From Calditrichota bacterium (lineage in GTDB: Bacteria > Calditrichota > Calditrichia > RBG-13-44-9 > J042), in assembly GCA_013150955.1 (NCBI GenBank), contig JAADJD010000012.1, positions 1-64,000 on the forward strand: a DNA stretch of 64,000 nt, in the 5' to 3' direction. Position 1 is the first letter of the stretch. Every line of letters starts with the position of its first letter. Of the stretch, positions 5,697 through 51,681 are shown piece by piece. A model generated the notes under the pieces. That model made no database searches. It was not told where the DNA came from and worked only from the letters and a program-made list of their open reading frames with translations. The translations under genes and the position numbers were made by a program.

Positions 5697-5716
5697 CAGT
5701 CGGGTGGAGAAATAAA

Positions 5717-5881
5717 CCCAGATTAAGCAAAAGCCTACGAATGACACGAATTCACACCAATAAAACCAATAAAATACATTGGATTGTGTCTGGATGAAAA
5801 TGTGTTCCAGGGTTTAATCGCGTTTTTGTTGATTTTTCTCGAATTCATTCGCGTGATTCGTGGTTTAACGCATTATTTGGG
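5717..5881 (+). repeat. 165-bp palindromic MITE-like element, copy A, plus an extra right arm to about 5953
   Basis: The copy begins CCCAGATTAAGC and ends CATTATTTGGG, with the internal block ggatgaaaatgtgttcc. It is flanked by ATAAA on the left and TTTAT on the right. A second right arm (TTTATTCGCGATTTTG ... GAATTTGGG, 5882-5950) follows in tandem, probably a remnant of another copy. It lies between the receiver gene's 3' end and the B12 promoter. Confidence 0.85.
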
Positions 5882-5953
5882 TTTATTCGCGATTTTGTAA
5901 ATATTGTTTGAATTCATTCGCGTGATTCGCGGTCTGAAGCAGAATTTGGGATA

Positions 5954-6153
5954 AACGCTAATGATGCAACGATCTCAGACCTGAAAACCGATCCCGGAAA
6001 AAATCATGCGATTGGACACGCATCCAACCGCTGGCCCATGCATCATCCGGAACGAAAAATTCGACCCACACCGTAAACAATTTCGTCGCCCAATATGGAG
6101 AGGCCCCGTTCCGCATTGCCAACAAAGCCATGCATCCGAGGGATCCCCTCAGG
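5954..6153. other. Non-coding remainder between repeat A and the receiver gene
   Basis: Apart from the repeat, the 437-base gap 5717-6153 holds no convincing gene. I see no hairpin followed by a T run after the receiver stop codon. Confidence 0.5.
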
Positions 6154-6522
6154 CTACTCTTCCCGCACCTTGCGTGACAACACCCGCTGAATCGCCTTCT
6201 TTAATTCGGTCAAATCGGATGACTTCACCACATACTCTTCGGCTGCCCAGCTCATGAAATCATCCTTGTAATGCGAATAAGCGGTGTGAATGATCACCGG
6301 AATGTTGGGATTGATGGTTAAAAATTCTCGTAATGCTTCCAGGCCATGTTTTTTGGGAATCATCAAATCCAGGATAATCAAATCCGGTTGATGTTCTTTT
6401 ACCTGAGTGATGGCTTCGTCTCCGTTACCCGCAATGATGACCTGATAGCCCAATTCGGTCAATTCGGTTTCGTACAAAATCTGTTGGGGTTCATCATCCT
6501 CAACGATCAAAATTTTCTTCAT
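6154..6522 (-). CDS. Single-domain response regulator (CheY-like receiver)
   Basis: The product has 122 residues and is a stand-alone receiver domain with no output domain. The ATG at 6522 (MKKILIVEDDEPQQ) is preceded by GAGGAG 6 bases upstream; an earlier in-frame start is not needed. The acidic pair is E8/D9/D10, the phospho-acceptor is D52 (LIILDLMIPKKHG), the switch residue is T80 (IIHTAYS) and the conserved lysine is K100 (YVVKSSD). It lies 93 bases downstream of a soluble histidine kinase on the same strand, so the two probably form a phosphorelay pair. With no DNA-binding or enzymatic domain, it must act through protein contact or pass the phosphate on. The downstream partner is not visible here. 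Confidence 0.9.
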   Translation of the reverse strand: MKKILIVEDDEPQQILYETELTELGYQVIIAGNGDEAITQVKEHQPDLIILDLMIPKKHGLEALREFLTINPNIPVIIHTAYSHYKDDFMSWAAEEYVVKSSDLTELKKAIQRVLSRKVREE

Positions 6523-6615
6523 GGCCTGCTCCTCTTCGGTTAGGCGTTTTACGACTTCTCTTTCACTTTCCATCCCTGACCATCAAACTCCATCAGCCCG
6601 TCCCGTAAACCGGCC

Positions 6616-8811
6616 TTAATTGCCCATTTCCGAGCTTTCCTCCGGTGCCTGTCTTCGATTGGGAAAAACCAATCGAAAGCAGCTTCCCTCTCCCGGACGG
6701 CTATCCACGACCACTTCACCGCCATGGGATTCCACAATCTGTTTCACGATCGAAAGTCCCAGACCGGTGCCGCTGGACTTGGTGGTAAAAAACGGCTGAA
6801 AGATCTTTTCCAGAATGGCGGGATCAATCCCGCGACCGTTGTCACACACCTCAATCATCACATTATTGTTGTCGCAATGGGTCTGAACGGTAATATTTCC
6901 CGGTCTGTCCAGATCCTCAAACGCCTCGATGGCATTTTTAAACAAATTCAGCAATGCATGGTAAAGCAGTTTCTCATCTCCATATACCTTTCCACTGAAG
7001 CAATTCAAATTCAGTGCCAGGCGGATTCCGCGGTGTTCAATGGCACCGCCCATCACCGAGGCCACCTGGTGAATAATGCGGTTGACGTCGATTAGCTTTT
7101 TGTCGGATCGGGGAGGCCGGGAAATATTCAGGATGTTGTTCAAAATATTTTCCAGATTCAGCACCTGTTCCTTGATGATCACCGCGAATTTGCGGATATC
7201 GGTGTTCTCCGGTGCCCGGCGGGTAATCAAATTGGCAAACCCGCCGATCGACACCAGGGGATTGCGGATCTCGTGGGCAACCTTGGCGGCCATTTCGCCC
7301 AGGGCGGCCAGCCGCTCGGCGCGCAACAATTTCTGTTGATTCTCTTCCAGCCGCTGATAGGCGTCCTGGAGTTCCCGAATCCGATCCTGCAGCGACTGGT
7401 ACAGCCGCGCATTCTCGATGGCCAGACTGGCCTGGTGGGCAAACACCTTCAAACTCTCGATGTCCTCGCTGGCAATATCCCGATTGGTAATGCAATTGTC
7501 CGCAATGATGACCCCCAGTCCCTCCTGCTTGGAAAACAGCGGCACCACCACAAAACTATCGGTTCCCAGAATATCCATCAAACTGCGCCCGTTGATGTGG
7601 ATATCATAAAGGTGGCCACTGATGACTTCCCCTTCCTGAACCTGGTACACCTGCCGGGATTCCAGGGCCCGTACCAGTAAATGCTTCTTCTTTTCGATGG
7701 GCACCTGAAGCTGCTGAACGATGCGATGCACCTGATATTCCCGCTGTCCCATCTTTTCCCGATAGATAGAGACCACTTCCTGCAACGAGCGGTAGTGATC
7801 CTGCAATTCTGCCCAGATGGCCTGTGCTTCTTCCTCGTCCGATGGCCCCACCCCCAGATATCCTTTCAGCATGTTGGTTTTTTTGTCCCGTAGCAGGATA
7901 ATCGCTCGATTAAACCGCAATCCTTCTCCGGAAGTAATCGCAATCAAAATATTTTCGAAAATTTCACGGGGCTCGTATGTTCGATAGAGCAATTCGTTCA
8001 GTTCATTCAGTTTGGACAATTCCAGCACCGTACGCCGAAGCTCAAATTCCAGTTCTTTGCGAGAGGTAATGTCCTTTATGATTTCCGATCGGCCGATAGG
8101 ATGGCCTTCGCTGTCCAGTATGCGCGTGCTGGTGATATCCACGTAGATCAATTCCCCGTCCTTCTTCAACCGCTGGGTTTCGTATTTCTTTAAATAGCCA
8201 CGGGTTTGCAACTCCTTACGAATGTAATAGAGTTCGCCAATTTCCATGAGCTCCTGGGGAATGATCTTCAGGATGGATTGCCCGATCATTTCTTCGGCAC
8301 TGTAGCCGAACAGGTCTTCCGCGCCCCGGTTCCACTCCAGCACGCGATCATTGTTGTCCAGAAAGATGATGGCATCGGCAGAGGAATCGATGATGGAAGC
8401 AAACAGGCGTTCCTGCGTTTGCAGAGCCAGCCGTTCCTTTTCGCTCTGGGTGATGTCCACCCCAATGCGCAAATAGCCTCGTGGTTGATCCTGGCCTTCA
8501 AAAATGGGCAATGTTAAAAATTCCAGGTATCGATCGTCCTGCTCTGGCTGTAACGATCGCTGCAGCACGTTCTTGATCACCTTCTGCCTTTCCAGATCCT
8601 GAACCAGCAGGCAATCGTCACAGGGATGTTCCCGATTCCAGAGAGCCTGGTAGCAAAACGGTCGACTTCCATCGAAATGGGGCAACTTTTCCTCCAGGAA
8701 CTGATTGCTCCACAGCAGGCGGTATTCCGCATCGATCAAATACAAATAGACCGGATAACGCCCCATGTAGCTATCCAGCTGGCGAAGAATGCGGATCAGG
8801 CGATCTTTCAT
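6616..8811 (-). CDS. Soluble PAS-PAS-GAF sensor histidine kinase
   Basis: The protein has 731 residues and no membrane segment, so it should be a cytoplasmic sensor. In order: an N-terminal PAS domain (about 10-125) with a HPCDDC motif near residue 63, as in PAS domains that may bind metal or sense redox state; a second PAS domain (about 130-255, GYSAEEMIGQSILKIIP); a GAF domain (about 270-465, FVVVPLFSKQEGLGVIIADN); a coiled linker; a HisKA dimerisation domain with the H-box AHEIRNPL near residue 510; and HATPase_c with the N-box LFKNAIEAF, DNGRGIDP and GTGLGLSIVKQI. All catalytic blocks are intact. It is followed by the stand-alone receiver gene and is divergent from lptF across 150 bases, so it may respond to envelope or redox status. 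The ATG at 8811 lacks a good ribosome site. Confidence 0.92.
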   Translation of the reverse strand: MKDRLIRILRQLDSYMGRYPVYLYLIDAEYRLLWSNQFLEEKLPHFDGSRPFCYQALWNREHPCDDCLLVQDLERQKVIKNVLQRSLQPEQDDRYLEFLTLPIFEGQDQPRGYLRIGVDITQSEKERLALQTQERLFASIIDSSADAIIFLDNNDRVLEWNRGAEDLFGYSAEEMIGQSILKIIPQELMEIGELYYIRKELQTRGYLKKYETQRLKKDGELIYVDITSTRILDSEGHPIGRSEIIKDITSRKELEFELRRTVLELSKLNELNELLYRTYEPREIFENILIAITSGEGLRFNRAIILLRDKKTNMLKGYLGVGPSDEEEAQAIWAELQDHYRSLQEVVSIYREKMGQREYQVHRIVQQLQVPIEKKKHLLVRALESRQVYQVQEGEVISGHLYDIHINGRSLMDILGTDSFVVVPLFSKQEGLGVIIADNCITNRDIASEDIESLKVFAHQASLAIENARLYQSLQDRIRELQDAYQRLEENQQKLLRAERLAALGEMAAKVAHEIRNPLVSIGGFANLITRRAPENTDIRKFAVIIKEQVLNLENILNNILNISRPPRSDKKLIDVNRIIHQVASVMGGAIEHRGIRLALNLNCFSGKVYGDEKLLYHALLNLFKNAIEAFEDLDRPGNITVQTHCDNNNVMIEVCDNGRGIDPAILEKIFQPFFTTKSSGTGLGLSIVKQIVESHGGEVVVDSRPGEGSCFRLVFPNRRQAPEESSEMGN

Positions 8812-8961
8812 CGGGACATATCTTTTTGTTTTTCATTGGGATAATAGTAAAAGTTTTCGCGAAAAGCAATGGAATACTTGTCGATTCCCGCATCCAATTT
8901 CTTTTCCCTTGATTAGGGCATAGTCGTCCATTAAACTTAAAATCTTAAACTGGCGAAATCC
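8812..8961. promoter_or_regulatory. Divergent promoter region between the sensor kinase and lptF
   Basis: This 150-base gap separates start codons on opposite strands and must hold promoters for both units. No operator palindrome or repeat element is evident. Confidence 0.45.
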
Positions 8962-10410
8962 ATGAACATACTGACACGATATATCATTAAAGAGCATATC
9001 GGCCCCTTCTTTTTCTCCCTCTCGGTGATCATGTTCGTATTCATTACCAAATTCATTGTGCAGTACATCGGCAAGATCTTCGGGAAGGGGTTGCCGATTT
9101 CCACAATTATCGAATTTGTTTACCTGAATCTGGCCTGGATGCTGGCACTGGCCGTTCCCATGGCGGTACTGGTGGCATCGCTGATGGCCTTCGGTCGCCT
9201 GGCTGCGGATAACGAAATCATCATTTTAAAAACCTCGGGCATTAATTTGTATCGTAGCATTCGTCCCGCCCTGCTGGCCGCCGTGGTGCTAACGCTGATC
9301 ATGACCTGGTACAACGATCGGGTCTTGCCGGAATTCAATCATCGGGCGCGCCTGCTGTATCAAAGCATTTCCCGGAAAAAGCCCACCCTCCAGCTGGAAG
9401 AAGGTATTTATCTGGCCATGAACAATTTCCAGATCCTGGTGCAGGATATCGAACGTTCCATTGGCAAGCGACTGGTGGACAAAAGCAACATCCTGGGCCC
9501 GGAATTCAGCGACTACTCCCAGCTGGATAAACTGCGGCAGATTACCATCTTCGAGCTGGCGGAGCGCAACCTGCAGCGTACGGTCATCGCCGATTATGGC
9601 TACCTTTATTTCGACAAAAAGCGGGCATTGCTGGTGTTTACCTTATTTGATGGGGAGATTCACGAAATCGACACCCGCAAATTTTCCGAATACCGCCGAT
9701 TGACGTTCACCCGCAACGTGATTCATATTCCCGCCCCGGAACTGATCTTTAAACGATCGGAAGACAGCTGGCGGGGCGATCGGGAAATGACCATCGCCAT
9801 GATGCGGGAACGCATCCGGGAGTACCGGAAATCCATTGAAAAGGAAATCCAAATCATCCAGGAATACAAGGACAACTACCTGCCGGCACCGCAGACACTG
9901 CAACTGGACACCCATAGCAGCGATCGCCCCTTACCCCCCGGAATGAAACGCAAACTCCGCTACGGTATTTCCATCGCCCAGAGCAAAACCCAGGGCACCC
10001 GGCAACAAATCATTTCCCACACCAATAACATCGATTTTTTCAAAAAACAAATCTACAAGTACCAGGTGGAAATTCACAAAAAATTCTCCATCCCCTTCGC
10101 CAGCATTGTCTTTATATTGATTGGTGCACCATTGGGGATTCGGGCGCGTAAGGGGAGTCTGGGTATCGGGATGACCTTTAGTATTGGATTTTTCCTGCTG
10201 TACTGGGTGTGCTTGATTGGTGGAGAGGAGCTGGCCGATCGGAAATTACTGTCCCCGTTTCTGGCCATGTGGTTGCCGAACATTCTGGTGGGACTGGCCG
10301 GGATTTACCTGACCTACAAAACGGTGAAGGAAACCACCTTCATTCAATGGGAACGTTTACCGAAAGCACTGCAACTGTTTCTTAAGGGAGAAGAAGAAAC
10401 CACACCATGA
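8962..10410 (+). CDS. lptF: LptF/LptG-family LPS export permease (first copy)
   Basis: This 482-residue protein of the YjgP/YjgQ family is a transmembrane half of the LptB2FG ABC exporter, which extracts LPS from the inner membrane. It starts with the typical MNILTRYIIKEHIGPFFFSL amphipathic/TM segment. Three further N-terminal membrane spans follow (FVYLNLAWMLALAVPMAVLV; ILKTSGINLYRSIRPALLAA), then a periplasmic jelly-roll region (about 130-330) and two C-terminal spans including FSIPFASIVFILIGAPLGI. It is longer than the usual 350-370 residues because of an extra charged, probably helical stretch (about 275-355, MMRERIREYRKSIEKEIQII). It overlaps the next gene by four bases (ATGA), so the two are translationally coupled. 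lptB and lptC are not in the window. Confidence 0.9.
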   Translation: MNILTRYIIKEHIGPFFFSLSVIMFVFITKFIVQYIGKIFGKGLPISTIIEFVYLNLAWMLALAVPMAVLVASLMAFGRLAADNEIIILKTSGINLYRSIRPALLAAVVLTLIMTWYNDRVLPEFNHRARLLYQSISRKKPTLQLEEGIYLAMNNFQILVQDIERSIGKRLVDKSNILGPEFSDYSQLDKLRQITIFELAERNLQRTVIADYGYLYFDKKRALLVFTLFDGEIHEIDTRKFSEYRRLTFTRNVIHIPAPELIFKRSEDSWRGDREMTIAMMRERIREYRKSIEKEIQIIQEYKDNYLPAPQTLQLDTHSSDRPLPPGMKRKLRYGISIAQSKTQGTRQQIISHTNNIDFFKKQIYKYQVEIHKKFSIPFASIVFILIGAPLGIRARKGSLGIGMTFSIGFFLLYWVCLIGGEELADRKLLSPFLAMWLPNILVGLAGIYLTYKTVKETTFIQWERLPKALQLFLKGEEETTP

Positions 10411-11489
10411 AATTGCTGGATCGATACATCATTCGTAAATTTCTGGTGGTGCTGTTTTTCACCACACTGGCGTTCATCGTCATTTTTATCATCGTGGATC
10501 TGATTGAAAACCTGGACAAATTCCTGATGTACCGCGCCAGTCTGCCGAATGTGATCATCTACTACATTTACTACATCCCCTTCATTATCATTTTAACTCT
10601 ACCGGTTAACATGCTGCTGAGCAGCTTATTCTCCATCGGTTCCATGGCACAATACAACGAGATCATTGCCTGCCAATCTGCGGGGATTAGTCTGTACCGC
10701 ATCGTTGCTCCCCTGCTGATGCTGGCTTTCCTGATCAGTTTGCTTTCTGGCATAGCGGGAGAAACGGTGGTGCCCAAATCCAACCGGGCGCGATTAGACC
10801 TGTGGCGCTTTGAAATCAAAAAAGAAACCCGCCACATGATCCGCAAACGGGAACAGATTGCCATTCAGGACAGCGATCAGCGACAGGTTTTTATAAAGGT
10901 CTACGATGGGGCCCGCAAGCAGGCATTGCAGGTTCATATTGTGTGGACGGATGGCAACCGGATTGTTCAACGCTGGGATGCCCGAAAAATGATCTGGGAT
11001 GACCAGCGCGGGGGGTGGATGCTGCAGGATGTGACCCTGCGGCAATTTACAGAGGAGGGCGAGATCGTTCAGCACCGGGATTCTCTGGCCTACGCCCATT
11101 CTCAGATCCACCCGGACGACCTCAAGGAGCTGGAATTAAAACCGGAAGAAATGAATTACACGGAACTGAAACGATTTGTGGATCGGATGCTGGAGCTGGG
11201 TGCGGATGCCCGCAAATGGTTGGTGGATCTGTACATGAAGATTTCCTATCCGTTTGCGAACTTCATTATTGTTCTGTTTGGGGCCCCCCTGGCTTCGCGG
11301 AAACGGCGCAGTGGCCCGGCCCTTGGGTTTGCCCTGGCGCTGTTGATCAGCTTCATCTATTTCCTTTTCCTGCGCTCCGGTCAGGTGCTGGGGCACAAGG
11401 GCGAATTGTCTCCCTGGCTGGCGGCCTGGATCGGGAACATTGTTTTTGGCATTGGCGGCATCCTGCTGATGCTGAAAATCCGAAAGTAA
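10407..11489 (+). CDS. lptG: LptF/LptG-family LPS export permease (second copy)
   Basis: This 360-residue YjgP/YjgQ permease is of normal family length and is translationally coupled to the preceding homologue through ATGA. It has MKLLDRYIIRKFLVVLFFTT, the spans IIYYIYYIPFIIILTLPVNML and ISLYRIVAPLLMLAFLISLL, a periplasmic beta-rich domain (about 120-255) and C-terminal spans (FANFIIVLFGAPLASRKRRS). As the partner subunit it should pair with LptF over LptB. Which of the two is F and which G follows gene order and length and is not certain. The stop codon is followed 16 bases later by a nested pair of palindromic elements. Confidence 0.88.
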   Translation: MKLLDRYIIRKFLVVLFFTTLAFIVIFIIVDLIENLDKFLMYRASLPNVIIYYIYYIPFIIILTLPVNMLLSSLFSIGSMAQYNEIIACQSAGISLYRIVAPLLMLAFLISLLSGIAGETVVPKSNRARLDLWRFEIKKETRHMIRKREQIAIQDSDQRQVFIKVYDGARKQALQVHIVWTDGNRIVQRWDARKMIWDDQRGGWMLQDVTLRQFTEEGEIVQHRDSLAYAHSQIHPDDLKELELKPEEMNYTELKRFVDRMLELGADARKWLVDLYMKISYPFANFIIVLFGAPLASRKRRSGPALGFALALLISFIYFLFLRSGQVLGHKGELSPWLAAWIGNIVFGIGGILLMLKIRK

Positions 11490-11510
11490 TCCCCAACGAT
11501 TCCTCATAAA

Positions 11511-11861
11511 CCCAGATTATATATTAGAACCACGAATTACACGAATTAACACAAATAAACCCAAATAATGTTTTAAACCACGAATCACACGAATGAATTC
11601 GAATCATATCAACAAAATAGCGAATATATCCCGGGAAACATTTTCATCCAGACACAATCCAATGTATTTTATTGGTTTTATTTGTATTAATTCGTGTAAT
11701 TCGTAGGCTATTGCTTAATCTGGGATAAAAATAATCAGATACATTGGATTGGATTGGATTAGATTAGATCTGAATGAAAATTTGTTACGGGGTTTATTCG
11801 TTATTTTGTGGACATGTTTTAGTTTCATTCGCGGGATTCGCGGTTACCTGCATCATTTGGG
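11511..11861 (+). repeat. Palindromic element, copy B outer (interrupted by copy B inner)
   Basis: The left part 11511-11559 (CCCAGATTATAT ... ACACAAATAAA) and right part 11730-11861 (AATAATCAGATACATTGG ... CATCATTTGGG) make one forward element once the insert 11560-11724 and one ATAAA are removed. The right part contains a small ggatt-type pentanucleotide expansion (about 11747-11768). Confidence 0.85.
11560..11724 (-). mobile_element. Palindromic element, copy B inner, inserted into copy B outer
   Basis: This 165-bp inverted copy begins CCCAAATAATG and ends TTAATCTGGG, with the central block ttttcatccagac. It is flanked by ATAAA on both sides (11555-11559 and 11725-11729), a 5-bp target-site duplication inside the outer element. 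Confidence 0.88.
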
Positions 11862-11900
11862 TTAAGGGTGGGATGGAGTTGCCACGTTGGGGTGGCGTCC

Positions 11901-13007: not shown

Positions 13008-13041
13008 GCTGCGCTCTTCTTGAAACGTTTCTCCATCGGGA

Positions 13042-14238: not shown

Positions 14239-14419
14239 AGCCTGTCTCCTTTTTACACCATCCCTGTACTTACCTCATGTTCGGCACTTCCGCCGAATTC
14301 CTAAATTCATTATCTTCAATAATAAACCTGCATTAAATAAAATAAATGTGATCAAATAATGCGGGTAAAGGAAAATTTTTTTTGAAAACTCCACCCGCCA
14401 GGTCGCTATCGCCAATACA
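14239..14419. other. AT-rich intergenic segment upstream of GGR-1
   Basis: The 410-base gap between the GGR-1 start and the next gene's terminator holds this AT-rich stretch, where the GGR-1/radical SAM promoter should lie, followed by repeat copy C. I see no gene here. Confidence 0.4.
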
Positions 14420-14584
14420 CCCAGATGATGCATTGGCCTACGAATTACACGAATTAAAACGAATAAAAAATAATAAAATCCATCTGGGATATCTGGATGA
14501 AAATGTGTTCCAGGGTTTATTCATGATTTTGGAGATATCTTCCGGTTTCATTCGCGCAATTCGCGGTTTAACGCATTATTTGGG
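14420..14584 (+). repeat. 165-bp palindromic element, copy C
   Basis: The copy runs from CCCAGATGATGC to CGCATTATTTGGG with ggatgaaaatgtgttcc inside. Flanks are ATACA (left) and ATAAA (right), a partial target duplication. It abuts the terminator of the VCBS protein gene. Confidence 0.88.
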
Positions 14585-14586
14585 AT

Positions 14587-14619: not shown

Positions 14620-14648
14620 CCTCACCAGGCAGTATGTTATGGAAAGGA

Positions 14649-19713: not shown

Positions 19714-19869
19714 CCCAGATTATTCATTAGACCACGAATTAATCCAAATAAAATTAATAATATACCCTGGATTAAATCTGGATGAAATTTTTTCCCGGTG
19801 TTTATTCGTGATTTTGTAGATAGTTTTTGGTTTCATTCGTGTAATTCGCGGTTTATGGTATTATTTGGA
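19714..19869 (+). mobile_element. Palindromic element, copy D, with 5-bp target duplication
   Basis: The copy runs from CCCAGATTATTC to TTATTTGGA (156 bp). It is flanked on both sides by TTTAA (19709-19713 and 19870-19874), a clean target-site duplication. It separates the flippase start from the upstream sulfotransferase-like gene. Confidence 0.85.
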
Positions 19870-25684: not shown

Positions 25685-25785
25685 CTAACCTACAAATCAC
25701 ACGAATTCATACGAATAAAATTTGGTTTTATAATGAACATGTTTTCCCGGTCTCAGTAACTTTTTGTTGATTTTCTAAATATTAA
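25685..25785 (+). repeat. Palindromic element, copy E (degenerate partial)
   Basis: The segment cctacaaatcacacgaattc ... ttttgttgattttct keeps the left arm and part of the right side of the element; the terminal CCC/GGG are lost. Confidence 0.5.
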
Positions 25786-25856
25786 TCCATGTCAATTATA
25801 AGGTATAAGCTAAATTCGCCATCTATTCTGAAAAATGTTCTATTGAATGATTTTAA

Positions 25857-26019
25857 CCCAAATTATGCACTAAACCGCGAATCACACGAATGAAACCAAA
25901 AATATCTACAAAATTGCGAATACACCCTGGAACACATTTCATCCAGACATCATCAAATGGATATTTTTATTTTTATTCGTTTTAATTCGTGTCAATCGTA
26001 GGCTAATGCACAATCTGGG
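25857..26019 (-). repeat. Palindromic element, copy F, plus an extra arm to about 26066
   Basis: The inverted copy runs from CCCAAATTATGC to CACAATCTGGG. Flanks are TTTAA (left) and TTTAT (right, 26020-26024), a 4-of-5 target match. An extra inverted left arm (TTTGTGTTCATTCGAG ... GAATCGGG) follows and abuts the stop codon of the gene ending at 26071. Confidence 0.85.
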
Positions 26020-26070
26020 TTTATTTGTGTTCATTCGAGTAATTCGCAGGCTTGCAGAATCGGGATTAAA

Positions 26071-31292: not shown

Positions 31293-31413
31293 GATTATGC
31301 AATAGCCTACGAATTACACGAATTAAAACGAATAAAAACAATAAAATCCATTGGATGATATCTGGATGAAAATTTATTTCGGGATTTATTCGCGATCTGA
31401 AGCATCAGTTGGG
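31293..31413 (+). repeat. Palindromic element, copy G (internally deleted), touching a stop codon
   Basis: The copy is about 121 bp: ttgattatgcaatagcctac ... ggatgaaaatttatttcggg ... attcgcgatctgaagcatca, ending GTTGGG. The left CCC and part of the right arm are missing. The right flank TTTA supplies the TAA stop (31415-31417) of the ConA-fold gene that follows. Confidence 0.75.
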
Positions 31414-40956: not shown

Positions 40957-41019
40957 TTTTCCCCACTATTTAATGAATCGATAATCATGAAACCGCTTAC
41001 CCACCGCTCTTTCCTTGCA

Positions 41020-41171
41020 GGAAACCGCGAATCCCGCGAATGAAAACAAACCATATCCACAAAATTGCGAATATACCCCAAAACAAATTTTCATCCAGAT
41101 CTGATCCAATGTATTTGATTATTTTTATTTGTGTTCATTCGTGCAATTCGTGGTCTGATGCATAATCTGGG
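41020..41171 (-). repeat. Palindromic element, copy H1, plus an extra arm to 41209
   Basis: The inverted copy lacks its first bases: aaccgcgaatcccgcgaatg ... ttttcatccagatctgatcc ... ATGCATAATCTGGG. An extra inverted left arm (aattcgtgtcattcgtagac ... TAATCCGGG) fills 41172-41209. Confidence 0.8.
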
Positions 41172-41214
41172 TTAATTCGTGTCATTCGTAGACGAACGCA
41201 TAATCCGGGTTCAA

Positions 41215-41379
41215 CCCAAATAAAGCGTTAAACCACGAATCACGCGAATGAATTCGAATAATATCAACAAAATAGCGAATATATCCGGGAAACCATTTTC
41301 ATCCAGATAGAATCCAGTGCATTTTATTATTTTTATTGGTGTTCATTCGTGTAATTCGTAGGCTATTGCATAATCTGGG
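41215..41379 (-). mobile_element. 165-bp palindromic element, copy H2, with TTCAA target duplication
   Basis: The copy runs from CCCAAATAAAGC to GCATAATCTGGG, exactly 165 bp. TTCAA occurs on both sides (41210-41214 and 41380-41384), a perfect 5-bp target-site duplication and the clearest evidence of the element's boundaries. Confidence 0.92.
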
Positions 41380-41590: not shown

Positions 41591-41925
41591 TCCAAATAAT
41601 ACATGAAACCGCCAATCCCGCAAATGAAACCCCGAAATATCCAGAAAATCGCGATTAAATCCAGATTATGCATTAAAACCACGAATTACACGAATTAACA
41701 CCAATAAAAATAATTGAATACACTTGTTCCTATCAGGATAAAATGTTTTCCCGGATATATTCGCTATTTTGTTGATATTATTCGAATTCATTCGCGTGAT
41801 TCGTGGTTTAACGTATTATTTGGGATAAATACAGAAACACATTTTCATCCAGATCGAATCCAGGGTATTTTATTCATTTTATTTGTGTGAATTCGTGTCA
41901 TTCGTGGTCTAACACATAATCTGGG
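41591..41925 (-). repeat. Palindromic element, copy H3 outer (interrupted by copy H3 inner)
   Basis: The inverted element is split: 41591-41659 (TCCAAATAATAC ... GCGATTAAA) and 41830-41925 (tacagaaacacattttcatc ... ATAATCTGGG). Together these are 165 bp. The following TTTA supplies the TAA stop (41927-41929) of the long cadherin-like gene. Confidence 0.85.
41660..41824 (+). mobile_element. 165-bp palindromic element, copy H3 inner, inserted into H3 outer
   Basis: A forward copy of 165 bp runs from TCCAGATTATGC to CGTATTATTTGGG. Flanks are TTAAA (41655-41659) and ATAAA (41825-41829), a 4-of-5 target duplication. Removing the insert and one flank restores an outer element of consensus length. 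Confidence 0.88.
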
Positions 41926-41926
41926 T

Positions 41927-44815
41927 TTATCGAACAATGATCAACTTTCCGGATGCCACCTTGTTGTTTTCCGAATCGCGTACCACGTAGATGTACAATC
42001 CGGACAGAACCGATTTTCCGGCGCTGTTTTTCACATTCCAGCGGTAAATGCGGGAATCGATTTTGCGATTGTACACCAGCTCCCCCAGCAGGTTGTAAAT
42101 ATTCAGCACGCCACCGATGGGTAAATTCACAAAATGAATGGCCTGATGATTGGCATCGCCGCCGGCCTGGAAGGGAATGGGAAACACATTCACGCCTTCG
42201 ACTTCACCGGTGGTAAATGTTTTCTGCTCCGAAAAAATCAGCTCCCCGGTAACGGTTTGTGAAACAATGCGGTAATAATACGTTTGATTGGGCTCCAGAT
42301 CGGTCAGAAGCGCCTGGTGCTCCGTGGTAAAAACGGAATCCGGGGACGTTTGTTGGCCATAACTGGCATCCAGACCGTATTCCAGATAATCGCGTGTGGG
42401 CTCGTTGGTCATCCAGCGGATTAACACATTCTGCCCGCTCCCGTAATACTGCTGGCTCACCGTGGGGAAAAAATCATCGGCAACGTTTTCCACGGTAAAA
42501 CGCACGGAAACCTCATCGAACAGGCCTTCGGGATCGGTTGCGCGAAAGGTCAATACCTCGCTGCCGTACCAGTGGATACCGGGCGGTTCAACGAACACCA
42601 CCCGATCGCTTCTCAAAATCACACTCAAATCCCGGTAACCGCGGATTGTCCACACCAGCTCTGCAATATCGTTGTCCACATCCTGAACGTATTCATCCAG
42701 GTAAATGGCCTGAAACGTTTCCCCTCTTCGAATGACCTGATCAGGGATTTCAGCAATCACCGGGGGATCGTTTACCGGACGCACCACAAAGGTAACCTCA
42801 TCGGTCGCCCAGTTTCCATCCGGATCCATTGCCCGAAACGTTAACGTTTCCCGGCCATACCAGTTGCTGTCCGGCAAAATAATGGTGGCCACGCGATCAT
42901 CGCTGATGGAGACATCCAGATACTTCTTGCCGCTTACCGACCATTGAATCTCAGCATCGGCGTCATCGCCGTCATCCACATAATCATCCAGCGGAATCGG
43001 GGCAAATTGTTGCCCTTCATCAATAATCTGATCCGGTATATCGGTTAATAAAGGCGTATTAAAACTCACCACTCGCAAAATCACCTCGTCTTCATTCCAG
43101 GCACCCGCCGCATCCGTGGCCCGAAAGATAATGGTGTCGGCACCAATCCAGTTGCTTTTGACAAAATAGATATTGGCCACATTGTTGTCATCGATCACCA
43201 CCACCAGGCTATCGGCTCCGTAAACACTCCAGGATATGGCACTGAGAGGATGATCCACGTCTTTGACATAGTTATTCAGCGGTATGGGTTCGAAGCGCTC
43301 TCCGGGACGGATGTTTTGATTGGGGATGTTGCTCACCTGTGGGGGATCGTTCACGGGATTCACCACAAACACAACCGATCGATCATCGGACTGGCCATCG
43401 GGATCGGTGACCTGAAAGATGACCGTATCCTGCCCAAACCAGTTGGAATCCAGCGGACTCACATGGGCAACCCGATCGCTACCAATCAACACCCGCACCC
43501 AATCGGCATCCCGATAACTCCAGCTCAATTCCGATGGCGCATTGTCCGCATCGGTCACGTAATCATCCAGCAAGATGGGGGGAAAACTTTCCCCTTCGTC
43601 AATCACCTGCCGGGGAATGGGCGCAATGGAAGGCGGCATGCGCACGGAGATGCCAAATATCACTGCATCTCGATCTTCCAGCCCTGCCGGATCGCGCGCC
43701 ACAAAGAATACCGTATCCATTCCACCCCAGGTGGAATCCACCGGCTCGATGTGCGCCACCCGCTGTGCGTCAATGGTAATCTGCACGTATTGCGCATCCT
43801 GAACCGTCCAGGTGATCTCATCATCGGTATTGTCCACATCCTTGACAAAATCATCCAGGAGGATTGGAGTAAAGGTCTCGCCTTCCTCAATAAACTGATC
43901 CGGAATGTCCGCTACTACCGGCCGGTCGTTCACCGGAGTGACAATAAAGCGAACCGTATCCTCCGCAAACTGGCTATCCGGATCCATTACCCGGAATACG
44001 ACCGTCTCCTGACCAAACCAGTTGGTGTCGGGCACTTCAATGGTAGCCACATGATTCTGATTAATATTGATGCGCAGATCCTGATTGCCGGAAACCGTCC
44101 AGGACAGTTCCGCGTCCGAATGATCCGGATCGGTCACGTAATCATTCAACGAGATGCTGGAAAACGAACCGCCCTCCTGGATCTGCTGATCGGGAATATC
44201 GGAAATGACCGGTGAGGTATCGATGACTGGACTGGAGATGGCTATGTTCCAGACATCGGTAAATCCATCAGGATCCGTCACCTGCAGGCGCAAGGTTTCC
44301 GTTCCCCGCCAGGTAGCGGATGTTTGAATGGTCAACACATGCGTATTGTCATCCAGCAGAATACTCAACTGGTTGGTACCGGAAGCACTCCACACCAGCT
44401 GATCATCGGGATGATCGGGGTCATTTACGTAATTGTCCAGATCCATGGTTACCGTTGTGTCCGGCGGAAGCACCAGGGACTGAGGGAGACCTGAAATCTG
44501 GGGGATGGCCGCCTGCACTTCCGGGGAAAAATCGCTCTTGTTGTAGGAAGAGTCCACCGCCTTAATGCGGTAAGCATAGCGCACCCCTTTTTGAATGGTA
44601 TCGTCAACATACACGGTATCCGGATGATACACCACTGCGATTTTGGCATAAGGATCGCCATTTACCTGGCGATAGATTTCGTAATAATACATATCGGTCT
44701 CGGGGTTTTTGTCCCAGATTAACCGCCAGCTGGTGGTCTGGGCAGACAGCCATCCCGTGGCAACCAGCCACAACAGGAAACCGACAATTGGCACCGAACA
44801 CCGCTTATTGCACAT
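41927..44815 (-). CDS. Exported multi-cadherin-like protein with variant T9SS tail (long paralog)
   Basis: The protein has about 962 residues. ATG 44815 is chosen because AGGTG lies 7 bases upstream; the frame could also begin at 44836. After a signal peptide (VPIVGFLLWLVATGWLSAQ) come an FnIII domain (about 25-105) and seven Ig/cadherin-like domains of about 95 residues. Each is marked by a PDQxIxEGExF-like edge, LDDYVxDxD, SNWxGxDTVxFRxxDPDG and NDPP. A second FnIII domain follows (VLIRWMTNEPTRDYLEYG), then a tail YPIPF ... YNLLGELVYN ... GLYIYVVRD ... KLIIVR. Acidic loops between domains suggest calcium binding. It is the long paralog of the 40093 gene and overlaps the PorV-like gene by 11 bases, so carrier and cargo are coexpressed. 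Confidence 0.85.
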   Translation of the reverse strand: MCNKRCSVPIVGFLLWLVATGWLSAQTTSWRLIWDKNPETDMYYYEIYRQVNGDPYAKIAVVYHPDTVYVDDTIQKGVRYAYRIKAVDSSYNKSDFSPEVQAAIPQISGLPQSLVLPPDTTVTMDLDNYVNDPDHPDDQLVWSASGTNQLSILLDDNTHVLTIQTSATWRGTETLRLQVTDPDGFTDVWNIAISSPVIDTSPVISDIPDQQIQEGGSFSSISLNDYVTDPDHSDAELSWTVSGNQDLRININQNHVATIEVPDTNWFGQETVVFRVMDPDSQFAEDTVRFIVTPVNDRPVVADIPDQFIEEGETFTPILLDDFVKDVDNTDDEITWTVQDAQYVQITIDAQRVAHIEPVDSTWGGMDTVFFVARDPAGLEDRDAVIFGISVRMPPSIAPIPRQVIDEGESFPPILLDDYVTDADNAPSELSWSYRDADWVRVLIGSDRVAHVSPLDSNWFGQDTVIFQVTDPDGQSDDRSVVFVVNPVNDPPQVSNIPNQNIRPGERFEPIPLNNYVKDVDHPLSAISWSVYGADSLVVVIDDNNVANIYFVKSNWIGADTIIFRATDAAGAWNEDEVILRVVSFNTPLLTDIPDQIIDEGQQFAPIPLDDYVDDGDDADAEIQWSVSGKKYLDVSISDDRVATIILPDSNWYGRETLTFRAMDPDGNWATDEVTFVVRPVNDPPVIAEIPDQVIRRGETFQAIYLDEYVQDVDNDIAELVWTIRGYRDLSVILRSDRVVFVEPPGIHWYGSEVLTFRATDPEGLFDEVSVRFTVENVADDFFPTVSQQYYGSGQNVLIRWMTNEPTRDYLEYGLDASYGQQTSPDSVFTTEHQALLTDLEPNQTYYYRIVSQTVTGELIFSEQKTFTTGEVEGVNVFPIPFQAGGDANHQAIHFVNLPIGGVLNIYNLLGELVYNRKIDSRIYRWNVKNSAGKSVLSGLYIYVVRDSENNKVASGKLIIVR

Positions 44816-46031: not shown

Positions 46032-46425
46032 GCTAACATCCCATTTTCCAGATTCGCCCTTTCCGTTTGCAAAGGATATACCAAACTTTCATTTTGCACG
46101 AAGCCACCCATTTTTCAGGATATATCATCACAAGGACAGTCCCCCTCCCCCACTCCCTTCTGCCGGGCCGGCTTTGATTGTGAACTTTTTACACAACCCT
46201 CTGCCGTCCATCGCATGGTCGTTATTAAGAAATGGCTACATTTTAGCAGGAATTCCCATTCCGATATGTGTTCAAAAGCAAAATATGCAATATTCACCGT
46301 GAACCGATTTCCTTTGAACAACGCCTTGCCTGAAAGTTGAAAATGATCCGGGATGGGTAGGGGTGCGACGATCCAACTAAGTGTTAATACCCTGCCGCAA
46401 CAAAACCACGAATGATTCGATTGAA
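46032..46425. other. Non-coding region upstream of the PorV-like gene
   Basis: This stretch should contain the PorV-like promoter. A short fragment of the palindromic element (aaccacgaatgattcg, about 46404-46419) is visible near its end. No gene is supported. Confidence 0.4.
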
Positions 46426-46673
46426 CCCAAATAAAGCGTTAGACCACGAATCACGCGAATGCGTTCGAAGAAAATCAATCTATTCTCCTGGCTGAAGCCA
46501 GGAATTAATCAACATTATCATTCATTAACACCCAGATTTATCTGGGTGGACAACTCCTATAGTATCAATAAATTACAGAACCGTTTCAACGGTTGGGGTT
46601 GTCTAATTCGCACAACGGGTTATTTTTTATTTGTGTTCATTCGTGTCATTTGTAGGCGAATGCATAATTTGGG
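46426..46673 (-). repeat. Palindromic element, copy I, whose centre is replaced by a three-hairpin module; extra arm to about 46720
   Basis: The outer arms are normal (CCCAAATAAAGCGTTAGACC ... and ... GAATGCATAATTTGGG), but the middle carries unrelated sequence (46471-46620). An extra inverted arm follows (46674-46720). Confidence 0.8.
46486..46594. repeat. Array of three perfect short palindromes inside copy I
   Basis: Three hairpins occur: TCCTGGCT-ga-AGCCAGGA (46486-46503), CACCCAGAT-tt-ATCTGGGTG (46529-46548) and AACCGTT-tc-AACGGTT (46579-46594). Each has a perfect stem and a 2-base loop centre. Their regular layout looks like a separate repeat unit rather than part of the 165-bp element. 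Confidence 0.75.
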
Positions 46674-46815
46674 TTTATTTGTGTTCATTCGCGTAATTTG
46701 CGGTCTGGTACATAATATGGATTAAAAATGGCCATCCTCCGGGACAGAAATTGGGCCGATCTGACTCCGCACCTATCTTCGACCAACGACCGAAATCGGG
46801 AAATCAGATCAGGCG

Positions 46816-47802
46816 TTAAATGGCATGCTTGAAAGATTTATAAAAAATGGGGTAGGTCTCACCAAGGGTGACAAATTGAACGGTGTGGACTGCAGTTATT
46901 TCCAGAACAAACTGACGGATCCTGTCCAGAAAACGAGACACATCGGTTTTGCTCTGATTGTAGGGAGATCCACCGGGCATCAGCTCGCTGGAGTGGAACA
47001 TCATGTTTAGTACCGGAACGCCGGACTGCACCACCGTTTTTGCCAGCTGTAACATGGATTCCACCGAAGCATACGAGGGACGCAGCCAGACCAGATCCAA
47101 TCCCGCCGCTGTACGCAGAATTTTCCGAATGCCGACATTGGGTAAATCGGGATAAACGCGTTTGAACCATTCCGGAACGTTTCGGGTAAATCCCACCGTA
47201 ATGGGTACTTCCAGTATGGGACTTGCGCCGGCCTGGCACACGTTTTCCCGATCCAGCGGATAGGGATGCAAATGAGTAATCGGAAAGGCCGGCTCATACG
47301 GTTGCCTGGCCCGTCGATAGGGTACCACACTGGAATCCACCCGATACCCCAGTGCTTCCAGGGCCGGCACCGTGGACGCATCAAAACCGTAACGTCCCGC
47401 ACGATATGAAACCGGACGGACTCCCAGCTGCTCTTCAATGGTGCGGGTAAGAGCGCTCAGTTTTTTCTGCTGCAAGTCCGGCGGCAGGTTGTTCAAAAAT
47501 GAATTGCGAACATTGCGTTCCTCCTCATAAGGCGGATTGCACCAGGGATGCAAATGGGTTCCGACCTCGCAACGGCCATCTTTTAATAGCTTTTTCAGAA
47601 TGGATACCGCTTCCTGACCCACCGCCACCGGATAATCGATCAGATAGGTCGGTCGAATGCCCAGCTCATCGCAAAACGCCTGGAAATCGGGCAAATAGCG
47701 GATGTTTTCTGTGGTCAGCTCCGTATGGGGCTTAAAATCCAGATTCCAGGCGTTATCTTCTTCGGTATCGATGGTTAATAAAAAATAAACCGTTTTGCCC
47801 AC
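46816..47802 (-). CDS. Polysaccharide deacetylase family protein (NodB-like)
   Basis: The protein has 328 residues. The GTG start at 47802 has GGGAG 6 bases upstream. The NodB fold is marked by FLLTIDTEEDNAWN (motif 1, D12 as metal/catalytic Asp), CEVGTHLHPWCNPPYE (motif 2, HxxxH-like metal ligands), SYRAGRYGFD (motif 3) and MMFHSSELMPGG near the C-terminus (His of motif 5). It has no signal peptide, so it acts in the cytoplasm, as in EPS clusters where the deacetylase works on a nucleotide sugar or lipid-linked intermediate. It follows the AlgD-type dehydrogenase by 10 bases. It would remove N- or O-acetyl groups from the sugars of this locus. Confidence 0.88.
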   Translation of the reverse strand: MGKTVYFLLTIDTEEDNAWNLDFKPHTELTTENIRYLPDFQAFCDELGIRPTYLIDYPVAVGQEAVSILKKLLKDGRCEVGTHLHPWCNPPYEEERNVRNSFLNNLPPDLQQKKLSALTRTIEEQLGVRPVSYRAGRYGFDASTVPALEALGYRVDSSVVPYRRARQPYEPAFPITHLHPYPLDRENVCQAGASPILEVPITVGFTRNVPEWFKRVYPDLPNVGIRKILRTAAGLDLVWLRPSYASVESMLQLAKTVVQSGVPVLNMMFHSSELMPGGSPYNQSKTDVSRFLDRIRQFVLEITAVHTVQFVTLGETYPIFYKSFKHAI

Positions 47803-47812
47803 GCCTCACTCC

Positions 47813-49126
47813 CTACCAGCATAGACCATCATATTTCACCTTTAATCGGCGTAAATCGTCCACGATGCGCACATAATCGATCACAATGAAGTTGTGATTT
47901 AATTGCTCAATCAAACTGGTGAATTCTGGATTTTTGTTCCCGATGATGATGATTTCGGCAAATTCCAGGATTTTATCAACACGATCAACCATCAAGCGGG
48001 AGATATGGGGAATTTTCTTATTAATGTACTCCTTATTAGCACCAAATAAGCGTGCCAGGTGCACATTCCGGTCGTAAATTCGAATGTCGTAACCTTTCCC
48101 GATCAGGGTCTCGACGACGTCCACCATGGGACTTTCTCGCAGGTCGTCGGTGTTTCCTTTGAAACTCAGTCCCAGCACCCCGATGCGTTTCTTTCCATGA
48201 GCCAGTACCATATCCACCGCGCGTCGGATGTGTTCTTGATTGCTTCGCATAAGCGAGCTGATCAGCGGCAATTCCAGATCCAGTTCTTTGGCCTGATAAG
48301 TCAATGCCCGGACGTCCTTGGGCAAACAGGATCCACCAAACGCGAAACCGGGTTTCAAATAGTAGGATGAAATGTTCAATTTCGTATCCATCACAAAAAT
48401 TTCCATCAACTTGTGGCTATCCACACCATGCGCCTTACAAATGGTACCAATTTCGTTGGCAAAGGCAACTTTCAGGGCGTGGAACACGTTGTTGGCGTAC
48501 TTCACCAGTTCAGCGACTTTTACATCGGTGCGAATCAACGGTGCCTTTAAAAAAGCATACATCTGCTGCAGATATTCACCGCTTCGGGGATCCAGCTCTC
48601 CAATGATGGTGTAGGGGGGATCGTAAAAGTCTTTTAATGCCGTTCCTTCTCGTAAAAACTCTGGATTCGAGCATCCACCAAACTGTTCTCCAATTCGCTT
48701 GCCGGACTTCTCGGAAATAATGCGCAGTACTTTTTCCAGGGTTCCCGGTGGAACCGTACTGCGGATCACCACCACATGATAATGGTCGATTTCCCGAATG
48801 GCCTCGCCGATTTGTTCCGCCACCCGGAAAATGTATTCCAGGCTTACACTGCCATTCTTTCGGCTGGGTGTTCCCACGCAGATCAGAGAGACATCGGAAT
48901 TGGCCACCGCTTCTTTGTAATCTGTAGTGGCCCGCAGTTTTCCGCTCCCCACAACCTCACCGATCAACTCGTCCAGTCCGGGCTCCACAATGGGACTCTT
49001 ACCGGAATTAATGATATCCACCTTGTCCACATTCACATCCACCCCGATCACCTGGTGTCCTTCCTTTGCAAAACAGGCGGCTGACACACAGCCTACATAA
49101 CCCAGTCCAAATACCCCGATTCTCAA
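47813..49126 (-). CDS. algD: GDP-mannose 6-dehydrogenase (AlgD-like)
   Basis: The protein has 437 residues. The start is TTG at 49126 (MRIGVFGLGYVGCVSAACFA) with GGAGG 7 bases upstream; the longer frame would place the ribosome site inside the coding region. It has a nucleotide-sugar dehydrogenase architecture: N-terminal Rossmann GLGYVG, ICVGTPSRKNGSVSLEY, IRSTVPPGT, the central KYANNVFHALKVAFANE and the catalytic cysteine motif GFAFGGSCLPKDVRALTYQA. The C-terminal domain has GLSFKGNTDDLRESPMVDVV and ends GLCW. The strings PGFAFGGSCLPKDVRALTY, LMRSN, LIGKGYDIRIYDRNV, GANKEYI and the final C-W match AlgD more closely than UDP-glucose dehydrogenase. It produces GDP-mannuronate, so the polymer probably contains a uronic acid. 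It is cytoplasmic and needs NAD. Confidence 0.9.
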   Translation of the reverse strand: MRIGVFGLGYVGCVSAACFAKEGHQVIGVDVNVDKVDIINSGKSPIVEPGLDELIGEVVGSGKLRATTDYKEAVANSDVSLICVGTPSRKNGSVSLEYIFRVAEQIGEAIREIDHYHVVVIRSTVPPGTLEKVLRIISEKSGKRIGEQFGGCSNPEFLREGTALKDFYDPPYTIIGELDPRSGEYLQQMYAFLKAPLIRTDVKVAELVKYANNVFHALKVAFANEIGTICKAHGVDSHKLMEIFVMDTKLNISSYYLKPGFAFGGSCLPKDVRALTYQAKELDLELPLISSLMRSNQEHIRRAVDMVLAHGKKRIGVLGLSFKGNTDDLRESPMVDVVETLIGKGYDIRIYDRNVHLARLFGANKEYINKKIPHISRLMVDRVDKILEFAEIIIIGNKNPEFTSLIEQLNHNFIVIDYVRIVDDLRRLKVKYDGLCW

Positions 49127-49224
49127 ACCGTAACCCTCCAAATTTTAATATCGTTCGTTTTATTTCTGATTTTTTTCAATCATTTTTCCAAAACACGTCA
49201 CCGGAGAAAAAATTTCCATCAGGC

Positions 49225-50496
49225 TTATCCGGTTTCGGCCATTGCCTCCGACTTTATCCGGGATTGATTTTTCTGGTTGACCACCATTTCGCAGATGCTG
49301 GCAAATACGTCGGCCACCTTTTCCCAGCGGAAATTTTCGTACACATATTGCCGCGCCTGCTTCCCGATGCGGGTACGTTCGTCCGCATCCCGTAACAGGG
49401 TGATCACATCGCGGGCAAAATCTTCCGGCGCATCAGCCAGGTAAATGTGACGCCGATCCTCCAGGGGCAATCCCTCTGCTCCCACACGCGTGGAAACAAT
49501 CGCCTTTTCCATGGACATGGCCTCAAAAATCTTCATCCGGGTGCCCCCACCAATCCGAATGGGCACCACAAATACTGCACTCTCATTTACATAGGGACGG
49601 GTATCCTCCACCCAACCCGTCAATTCCACATGGGGGTAATTTTGCACCAGTTTTTTCAATTTTGGGGCCGGATTGCGCCCAACGATCACAAATTTCACGT
49701 CGGGCTCTTCCCGCAAAATCAGTGGAAAGACTTCTTCCAGGAAAAACAGCATGGCATCGTGATTGGGCAACCAGTCCATCGCCCCCACAAATACAATCTG
49801 CTTCTTAACCTGGACATCTGGATTGGGAGCGTAAAAATCGGTATCCACTCCCGTGGGAATGACGTGCACGTTTTTCAGACCATACCATTCTTCAAAACGT
49901 TGTTTGTCCAGATCGGACACGGCGATGACCGCATCGAAACGTGCGGACTCCCGCTTTTCGTGATAAAACATTTTCCGAAACTGGAGCCACCAGAAAATTT
50001 TGAACAGGGGATCGCGAGAACGCTTCATGTGGCGCAGGGAGATGGTGGCCTCTACATTGTGCTGAAACAAAATTTTGGGTATGCCGGTCACCCGGCGAAA
50101 ATTCAACGTGGATTGCATAAAATCGCAAATGGCCAGATCATACGATCCATTTTTCAGCTCATCCAGAACCGCTTGTTCAAGCTCCGGCGAATAATCATTT
50201 AACATGGGTACCGGGTAGATTGAGAACGATTTCTTAAAAATGTCCCAGTACCACCGCCAGGTGTAGCGTGGGATTTCCTTCCAGGGAACGGGAACAAATT
50301 TTTCACACAACCGCCTCATTTCTGGCAAATAGGGATCATCCTTGGGAGACTCCACATTACTAATCACAGTTATGCGATATCGTTTATTCAGCTGTTCCAG
50401 GATTTTCCCGGTACGGATTTTTCCCCCGGTATCCTGTGGGAATAAAAATCGCTGGGACAAAAATAGAATTCTGAGCGTTTTGTTATCATTTTTCAT
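49225..50496 (-). CDS. GT4 family glycosyltransferase (sugar transferase)
   Basis: The protein has 423 residues. ATG 50496 is preferred, with GAGG about 9 bases upstream, over a longer frame that reads into the preceding gene. A GT-B N-terminal domain (LRILFLSQRFLFPQDTGGKI, GGxxR-like donor-proximal segment) and a C-terminal domain (QIVFVGAMDWLPNHDAMLFF, PIRIGGGTRMKIFEAMSMEK, VSTRVGAEGLP) are typical of GT4 transferases found with exopolysaccharide/XrtA clusters. FLEEVFPLI and the EAMSxxK catalytic/donor segment are intact. It overlaps the sulfotransferase gene (50486) by 11 bases. It adds a sugar to the polymer; donor unknown. Confidence 0.86.
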   Translation of the reverse strand: MKNDNKTLRILFLSQRFLFPQDTGGKIRTGKILEQLNKRYRITVISNVESPKDDPYLPEMRRLCEKFVPVPWKEIPRYTWRWYWDIFKKSFSIYPVPMLNDYSPELEQAVLDELKNGSYDLAICDFMQSTLNFRRVTGIPKILFQHNVEATISLRHMKRSRDPLFKIFWWLQFRKMFYHEKRESARFDAVIAVSDLDKQRFEEWYGLKNVHVIPTGVDTDFYAPNPDVQVKKQIVFVGAMDWLPNHDAMLFFLEEVFPLILREEPDVKFVIVGRNPAPKLKKLVQNYPHVELTGWVEDTRPYVNESAVFVVPIRIGGGTRMKIFEAMSMEKAIVSTRVGAEGLPLEDRRHIYLADAPEDFARDVITLLRDADERTRIGKQARQYVYENFRWEKVADVFASICEMVVNQKNQSRIKSEAMAETG

Positions 50497-51301
50497 GATA
50501 CTGTCCCTCTGTTTCGAATGGTTGAAATGAGTAGCCATATTTCTTCATAAAGGTCTCCAGTTCACTTCGCTTTGCCGGATCATCCCAGATGGTTTTCAAA
50601 TAATTGCGTTTTTCTGGATCATTCTTCCATTTATTTATCGAACGGGGATCGAAATTCCTGAGCCGATGCATATATTGAACCATTTTACTGTTTCGGGCCT
50701 GTTCATCCAGGTATTGTTCCAGATGTCCCAGCGATGCGACACCAGGTTTCAATTGCAACCCAAACGTATTCTTTAAGCGTTCCTCTACCTGATCAATATG
50801 TTGCACCAGGTCTTCATATCGTAAAACCAGTAATTCAGAATATCCTTTTAGTCGTTCCTGTAAATATTCTCCAGCGCTAACCGATTGTTTCCAGGTTTCG
50901 AAACCCACATAATACGGTTTTTCATGTAATTTATGTTTGCTGGTCAGCACATCTCGCGGATCGCGCACCAGATAAATCAATCCAATGCGGAAATGGTTCA
51001 CGTACTGGATCAAGCGTTCCAATTTTTCCTGAACGTACCAGGTCGCGTTCCGTTTGGTAATAATAAAAAATCGTTCTTTCTGGAATCCCTTTTCCTGCAC
51101 CAGTTGAAAGGTTTTCTTCAGCCCCGGCCAGTTCCAGACGGAAACTTCTCTCTCGTAAAGCAAGGTGTTCCGAAATCCGGAAAGCGCAAAATACAACAGG
51201 GTGGTACCGGAACGGGCACATCCAACAATATGAATACGCTTAAAGTTGGCTTTCTCCAACAACTTATGTTTTAAACGATTTTTAAACCAGCTCGAATCCA
51301 T
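50486..51301 (-). CDS. PAPS-dependent sulfotransferase
   Basis: The protein has 271 residues. The 5'-phosphosulfate loop is RIHIVGCARSGTTLLYFALS (ARSGTT, standard), the 3'-phosphate motif is IYLVRDPRDVLTSKHKLHEK (RDPRDxxxS), and a downstream LVLRYEDLVQHIDQVE matches the RYEDL segment of the sulfotransferase family. It should transfer sulfate from PAPS to a hydroxyl or amine of a sugar. The start has a clear ATG at 51301. It overlaps the GT4 gene by 11 bases, so it belongs to the exopolysaccharide operon. Length is normal for bacterial carbohydrate sulfotransferases. Confidence 0.88.
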   Translation of the reverse strand: MDSSWFKNRLKHKLLEKANFKRIHIVGCARSGTTLLYFALSGFRNTLLYEREVSVWNWPGLKKTFQLVQEKGFQKERFFIITKRNATWYVQEKLERLIQYVNHFRIGLIYLVRDPRDVLTSKHKLHEKPYYVGFETWKQSVSAGEYLQERLKGYSELLVLRYEDLVQHIDQVEERLKNTFGLQLKPGVASLGHLEQYLDEQARNSKMVQYMHRLRNFDPRSINKWKNDPEKRNYLKTIWDDPAKRSELETFMKKYGYSFQPFETEGQYHEK

Positions 51302-51370
51302 ATCTCAATTCTCGTTTTATTTCAAATGAGGCTTAACACCATGAGCACGTGCATTAAACTCTACTTAAGT

Positions 51371-51523
51371 TTCAGATCGCAAACCATGCGAATGAATCCG
51401 AACTATATCAACAAAATCATTAATATATCCCGGAACCCATTTTCATCCAGATAAAATCCAATGTATTTGGTGATTTTTATTCGCGTTGATTCGCGTAATT
51501 CGTGGGCGAAGACGTATTCTGGG
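51371..51523 (-). repeat. Palindromic element, copy J (left end lost)
   Basis: The inverted copy runs from about ttcagatcgcaaaccatgcg through ttttcatccagataaaatcc to GACGTATTCTGGG. It lies in the 380-base gap 51302-51681 upstream of the sulfotransferase. Confidence 0.8.
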
Positions 51524-51681
51524 TTTAAAACCCCGGTCTCAATGAAATGAATTTCTGGAGGCAGAACCTGTCGTGGGTAGCATGCATCGGATATTCCATT
51601 GGCCGTTCAGTCATCCCGGATACGCTGTTAAACCTGCAGCGTGGAATTGACCAGGGCATTGGGCGAACAGCCCCGATACTT
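51524..51681. other. Non-coding remainder downstream of the NHL protein
   Basis: No gene or clear terminator is visible. The frame of the NHL gene continues open for 17 codons beyond its stop (to TAA about 51630), which may be chance. Confidence 0.35.

Follow-up and report, generated by a model that had tools for sequence, protein, structure and literature searches.

A 165-bp intergenic MITE with IS1380-type ends and a palindromic array interior in a Calditrichota genome

The 165-bp repeat dispersed through the intergenic gaps of this Calditrichota genome is a transposon-derived MITE. We give a probability of roughly 0.88 to a joint reading in which it is a type II MITE with IS1380 ends and an interior of the array kind found around GxxExxY genes, expanded in its own lineage. 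As a MITE, the element is of a known kind; it is notable in its copy number and composite structure, and the association between arrays and GxxExxY genes is the more novel lead. The interest of the family is threefold: a single parasite accounts for 3.7% of the genome and its likely enzyme can be named; its interior proves to be a palindromic array that recurs, identical in every base, in 12 phyla or more; and the array-GxxExxY link, replicated in other phyla and with a repeat unit that tracks protein clade, provides a testable hypothesis for a widespread orphan family.

A family of full, partial and nested copies

In the window (the whole 64,000-nucleotide stretch analysed), a profile search produced 21 non-redundant matches to the family, of which 9 are near-full and 12 partial, and returned 0 matches in shuffled sequence. 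The original prediction had listed about 14 copies: every position it gave holds a copy or a fragment, but the count was too low because half-copies, tandem or nested, fill many gaps. Across the 1.16 Mb (57 stretches) on which our genome statistics rest, 133 adjacent pairs were found among 359 elements. The commonest length of full copies is 165 bp, as first described, and the consensus of 152 copies likewise bears out a left arm that differs from the right arm and a central GGATGAAAATGTGTTCC block.

Copies are given here as '+' when the left end, CCCAGATTATGC, comes first. A full copy at 5717..5881 (+), recovered by profile and repeat search, is adjoined by a right-half copy (5879..5950, +), and the resulting complex at 5717-5949 is flanked by ATAAA on both sides. 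At 11511-11861, a host element is split into a left part (11511..11558, +) and a right part (11725..11861, +) by a full copy nested inside it (11560..11724, -), itself flanked by an ATAAA/ATAAA duplication; this nesting had been predicted. A full copy at 14420..14584 (+) has flanks ATACA/ATAAA and a near-full copy at 19714..19868 (+) has flanks TTTAA/TTTAA. The profile search then gives a degraded partial copy at 25686..25792 (+) and a full or near-full copy at 25857..26019 (-) adjoined by a half copy (26021..26064, -), and a truncated copy at 31293..31399 (+) was recovered by repeat and profile search. Around 41 kb, a near-full copy without its right end (41016..41171, -) and the half copy adjoining it (41169..41209, -), both from the profile search, precede a full copy with an exact TTCAA/TTCAA duplication (41215..41379, -), and a near-full copy at 41661..41824 (+) splits another host element into two parts (41592..41664 and 41823..41925, both -). 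The remaining matches, all from the profile search, are a degraded partial copy (46426..46543, -), two adjoining half copies (46624..46673 and 46675..46720, both -) and a near-full, diverged copy (51365..51523, -).

Insertion with target duplication and an IS1380 partner

Transposition has left a 5-bp target duplication as its signature. Of the 102 copies whose CCC...GGG ends are exact, 44 carry the same 5-mer, in direct orientation, on their two sides; the expectation between copies is 9.5%, and no more than 20 matches arose in any of 2,000 permutations. Other duplication lengths show no excess (2/102 at 4 bp; 0/102 at 3, 6, 7 and 8 bp). The target consensus is WTNAW, with T and A at about 95%, and some 20 clean nested insertions into hosts of known consensus display the duplication directly (for example ATAAA, TTGAT, ATCAA and TTTAT). 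The element is short, carries no transposase ORF and is present as many dispersed intergenic copies, all of which are features of a MITE.

The ends, the 5-bp duplication and the A+T-rich target together pointed to IS1380 as the partner. ISEcp1, a member of this family, is reported to produce a 5-bp A+T-rich target duplication, TATGA (PMC2887853), which is the length found here. A Pfam search of the genome identified one IS1380 transposase, located at the end of a contig, with scores of 219.4 bits for NF033539 (cut-off 180) and 139.8 bits for PF13701. Searching with the transposase DNA revealed at least four other contigs carrying the left end of the IS and at least five carrying the right end, with differing flanks; the IS is therefore multi-copy and breaks the assembly. 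The MITE-like nature originally proposed is thus upheld, and the transposase-encoding relative with the same ends, for which a search had been advised, exists in this very genome. Its ends are CCCAGATTACGCAATAG and CCCAGATTACGCATTAG, those of the MITE CCCAGATTATGCATTAG and CCCAAATAATGCRTTAA, and over the terminal 17 bp the MITE left end and the IS right end are identical at 16/17 positions. As similarity is confined to the ends, the element falls into type II under the definition of PMC10969869. The IS flanks TTTAA, TTAAA or ATAAT fit WTNAW, left and right flanks lying on different contigs so that duplications are unpaired.

That the IS1380 transposase moves the 165-bp element is well supported, the enzyme being deduced from the ends and targets that the IS and the MITE have in common. 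This transposase, whose gene lies at another place in the genome, would recognise the terminal ~17 bp (CCCAGATTATGCATTAG / CCCAAATAATGCRTTAA) and insert the element at WTNAW; the 5-bp duplication that accompanies insertion is observed, and the enzyme responsible is the putative part of the scheme. One IS1380 copy is itself inserted within a MITE copy. A point against the scheme is that the best-assembled transposase (locus L145, ~1085) changes frame after its initial ~75 codons, reflecting either a broken copy or an assembly error. The same locus contains, at 1555-1660, the beginning of a second ORF (MKKLQPSEQLSNQIAELLERGVRSGENLL...), which may encode a further transposase and into which a 165-bp copy intrudes.

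A composite element with cross-phylum arrays

The interior of the MITE consists of two inverted arrays of CACGAAT-type units spaced ~10 bp apart, a module absent from the IS. With IS-like ends and a non-IS interior of the GxxExxY array kind, the 165-bp element is a composite of IS1380 ends and a GxxExxY-type array pair. Strings of the attcgtg type do recur outside this genome, as had been suspected: an exact array 27-mer, CCACGAATTACACGAATTAACACGAAT, has 115 or more occurrences among GTDB species, spread over at least 12 phyla, for a chance expectation that we estimate at ~3e-5, and none in 2.9 million viral contigs. Most of these sites are small palindromes bordered by T-runs and A-runs. Two further genomes of the class (G001 and G009) have the array inside an element of ~123 bp with quite different ends, TGAGTTCAGTATAAAAA / TGAGTCCACTCTAAAAA, present in dozens of copies, many with CACGAAT arrays; a transposase for this element was sought and none was identified. 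In a Cloacimonadota sequence (L199, 1634-1710), a CACGAAT array runs straight into TTAAACCCAGATTATGCAATAGG; this is an IS1380-type end of the same form as those of the present genome, in a different phylum. No paper describing the arrays was found in literature searched with array strings and GxxExxY names, and this widespread class of intergenic palindromes appears undescribed in the papers searched.

Since the array is common to the 165-bp element and to GxxExxY elements, and shows the highest conservation within the MITE (array columns 96% conserved vs 84% elsewhere), one might propose that a GxxExxY/array system mobilises arrays by itself, the CCC...GGG ends and the 5-bp duplication being its product and not that of IS1380. 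We consider this improbable: the CCCAGATTAYGC ends and WTNAW flanks belong to a bona fide IS1380 element free of arrays, GxxExxY elements and solo palindromes begin directly at CCACG/CCTACG without CCC ends, and arrays also reside within the differently ended element of G001/G009. Nor is the 165-bp element a GxxExxY array element proper: 165 bp leave no room for a PF13366 ORF, and the arrays alone are shared.

A second and still less probable alternative, part of which had been raised initially as a REP-like family, would make the repeats REP/BIME or other RNA-acting palindromes, that is, hairpins serving in mRNA stability, termination or nucleoid binding and spread by a Y1 (REP-associated) transposase. 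Copies are indeed dispersed, intergenic and palindromic, and they are enriched between convergent genes, where 53% of gaps hold an element, compared with 25% for codirectional and 18% for divergent neighbours. However, the element creates a 5-bp target duplication, and its ends correspond to those of a DDE IS and not to a Y1 system. Complementarity of left and right arms is 0.668 within a copy vs 0.666 when arms are shuffled between copies, a result that speaks against selection for an RNA hairpin, and the arms are not depleted in private mutations. The identity of the element as REP/BIME or RNA hairpin is thus largely refuted by the presence of the duplication and the absence of arm covariation. 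A model in which intergenic DNA multiplied by segmental duplication or by recombination, with no transposition involved, might be evoked by the tandem half copies beside some full copies. It has a negligible probability and is refuted by the 5-bp duplications; these match the target consensus, nested insertions are clean, and the flanks of 165-bp copies have no sequence in common beyond the duplication.

Returning to a MITE mobilised through IS1380 ends, private mutations (present in 1-2 copies) occur at 0.0076 in the array and 0.0076 elsewhere. Taken with the conserved array columns, these equal rates indicate that the constraint on arrays seems to act on lineages that spread and not on resident copies, and this suggests that arrays may have a role in propagation, for instance as protein binding sites.

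Expansion mostly or wholly within one lineage

The 1.16 Mb sampled contain 359 non-redundant copies, which together make up 3.67% of the DNA; 172 are essentially full-length. Extrapolation to the 4.07-Mb genome yields ~1,260 copies, ~600 being full-length. Over the whole genome, the end motif occurs 1,598 times with at most one mismatch, and its reversed control 0 times. Of the raw matches to the element, about 3% fall inside called ORFs. Copies have a median identity of 86% to the consensus and 79% to each other, the closest pair reaching 98%.

The sister species is all but devoid of the family, with 2 matches to the end motif vs 1,598 here. In this syntenic genome (69-79% nucleotide identity) orthologous gaps are without the element, and a single 306-bp relative or relic, with a different interior, is flanked by an ATAAT/ATAAT duplication. 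With the element missing from orthologous gaps and one relic only, we attribute the bulk of its proliferation to the lineage of its own species. A base-level comparison of empty sites was abandoned, as orthologous gaps are too diverged, and nested insertions were therefore taken as a substitute. The MITE would have expanded mostly or wholly in the lineage of its own species and persisted in intergenic gaps, chiefly convergent ones.

Arrays and GxxExxY genes

GxxExxY (PF13366 PDDEXK_3 / TIGR04256) is an orphan, PD-(D/E)XK-like family, and one array found ahead of a GxxExxY gene prompted a test of the association. GxxExxY genes are carried by 37/40 genomes of the phylum, many of the ORFs lying between inverted arrays. 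We examined 68 PF13366 loci (L071-L101 and L286-L320), plus L321-L350, using an automated score in which a flank is positive when above 99% of the null. In genomes of the phylum, 64/136 GxxExxY flanks were array-positive vs 7/136 control windows. A second set was made of 31 array-bearing genomes picked from the 27-mer matches, most of them from other phyla: the family is present in 27/31 and absent from 4/31, and 34/56 flanks were positive vs 4/56 controls.

Units differ between genes (CACGAAT, CACGGAT, CGCGGAT, CACCGAA, CACAGAG and CACAAAG), and agree across the two sides of one gene, with 1.09 vs 2.53 mismatches (permutation p<0.0002) and, in the second set, 0.88 vs 2.26. Distances between units fall as the identity of the proteins rises (Mantel r -0.26, p<0.0005, n=43), the correlation of unit with protein clade reaching r -0.32 (p<0.0005) when both sets are combined; prediction of units from the nearest protein across phyla went in the same direction and was not significant (p 0.085). 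Co-inheritance alone could explain the correlation between units and clades. Other GxxExxY genes (L093 and L095) have CAGGATT-type iterated repeats alongside, a further class of unit.

The sole GxxExxY gene of the present genome (L101) belongs to the KESY clade, which is the clade with CACGAAT-type units, and has arrays at both ends, the locus ending in CCTACGAATCACCCGAATAAAACGAA. A 165-bp copy has inserted at the stop codon of this gene and is flanked by a duplicated TTTAT. Elsewhere, arrays are mostly far from GxxExxY genes (1/80 within 500 bp); this and the 4/31 array-bearing genomes that lack the family weigh against recognition of arrays by GxxExxY.

A D...E-x-K pattern, PD-(D/E)XK-like, is kept in 65/68 GxxExxY members; sequence searches for relatives of solved structure found none that is close. 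GxxExxY is a candidate array binder because most members keep this pattern and share unit/clade structure with the arrays. Arrays would probably serve to bind a protein that helps the element to spread, with GxxExxY as the leading candidate, and we infer from sequence associations that they may be target sites of GxxExxY proteins. A wider proposal, which we hold only tentatively and at less than even odds, is that iterated CRCNRAN palindromic arrays (at least 12 phyla) could be the recognition sites of the nuclease-like GxxExxY proteins in an unrecognised mobile system whose protein clades and DNA units co-diverge, that MITEs with no relation to one another would have acquired array pairs on repeated occasions (here one of IS1380 type; in G001/G009 one of TGAGTTCA type), and that the array may have made the present MITE unusually prolific.

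Comparison with known elements

IS1380 insertion sequences such as ISEcp1 have in common with the 165-bp element a transposase family represented in the same genome (NF033539, PF13701) and the 5-bp A+T-rich duplication reported for ISEcp1, whereas the element lacks a transposase and shares only ~17 bp per end. Type II MITEs (Chunjie, QMITE, Correia and ERIC) are similarly short, intergenic, nested and alike in their ends only, with degraded partial copies (PMC10969869). The present family differs by its ~1,260 copies, 3.7% of the genome, and by an interior made of a cross-phylum array module; the highest MITE copy count quoted in that review is 711, for ERIC, and IS1380 is not named there as a source of MITEs. 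GxxExxY genes with flanking arrays show the same inverted pair of CACGAAT-type arrays at ~10-bp spacing, but the 165-bp element is without an ORF and has additional outer ends of IS1380 type. Lastly, piggyBac, for which IS1380 transposases have served as an outgroup, also has CCC ends and an A+T-rich target, the 4-bp TTAA (PMC10813416), in contrast to the 5-bp WTNAW and bacterial IS1380 transposase associated with the 165-bp element.

Other features of the window

An Rfam scan of the window returned only a cobalamin riboswitch and no named family for the 165-bp repeat; none with its sequence was found in the papers searched either. Only 74 bp separate the riboswitch (RF00174, 110 bits; 5474-5643, -) from the element that begins at 5717, and this places the element just upstream of a B12-controlled gene. 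Two further sets of repeats, 147-bp direct repeats at 5-1329 and repeats with a 579-bp period within ORFs at 42513-44025, are probably repeated protein domains.
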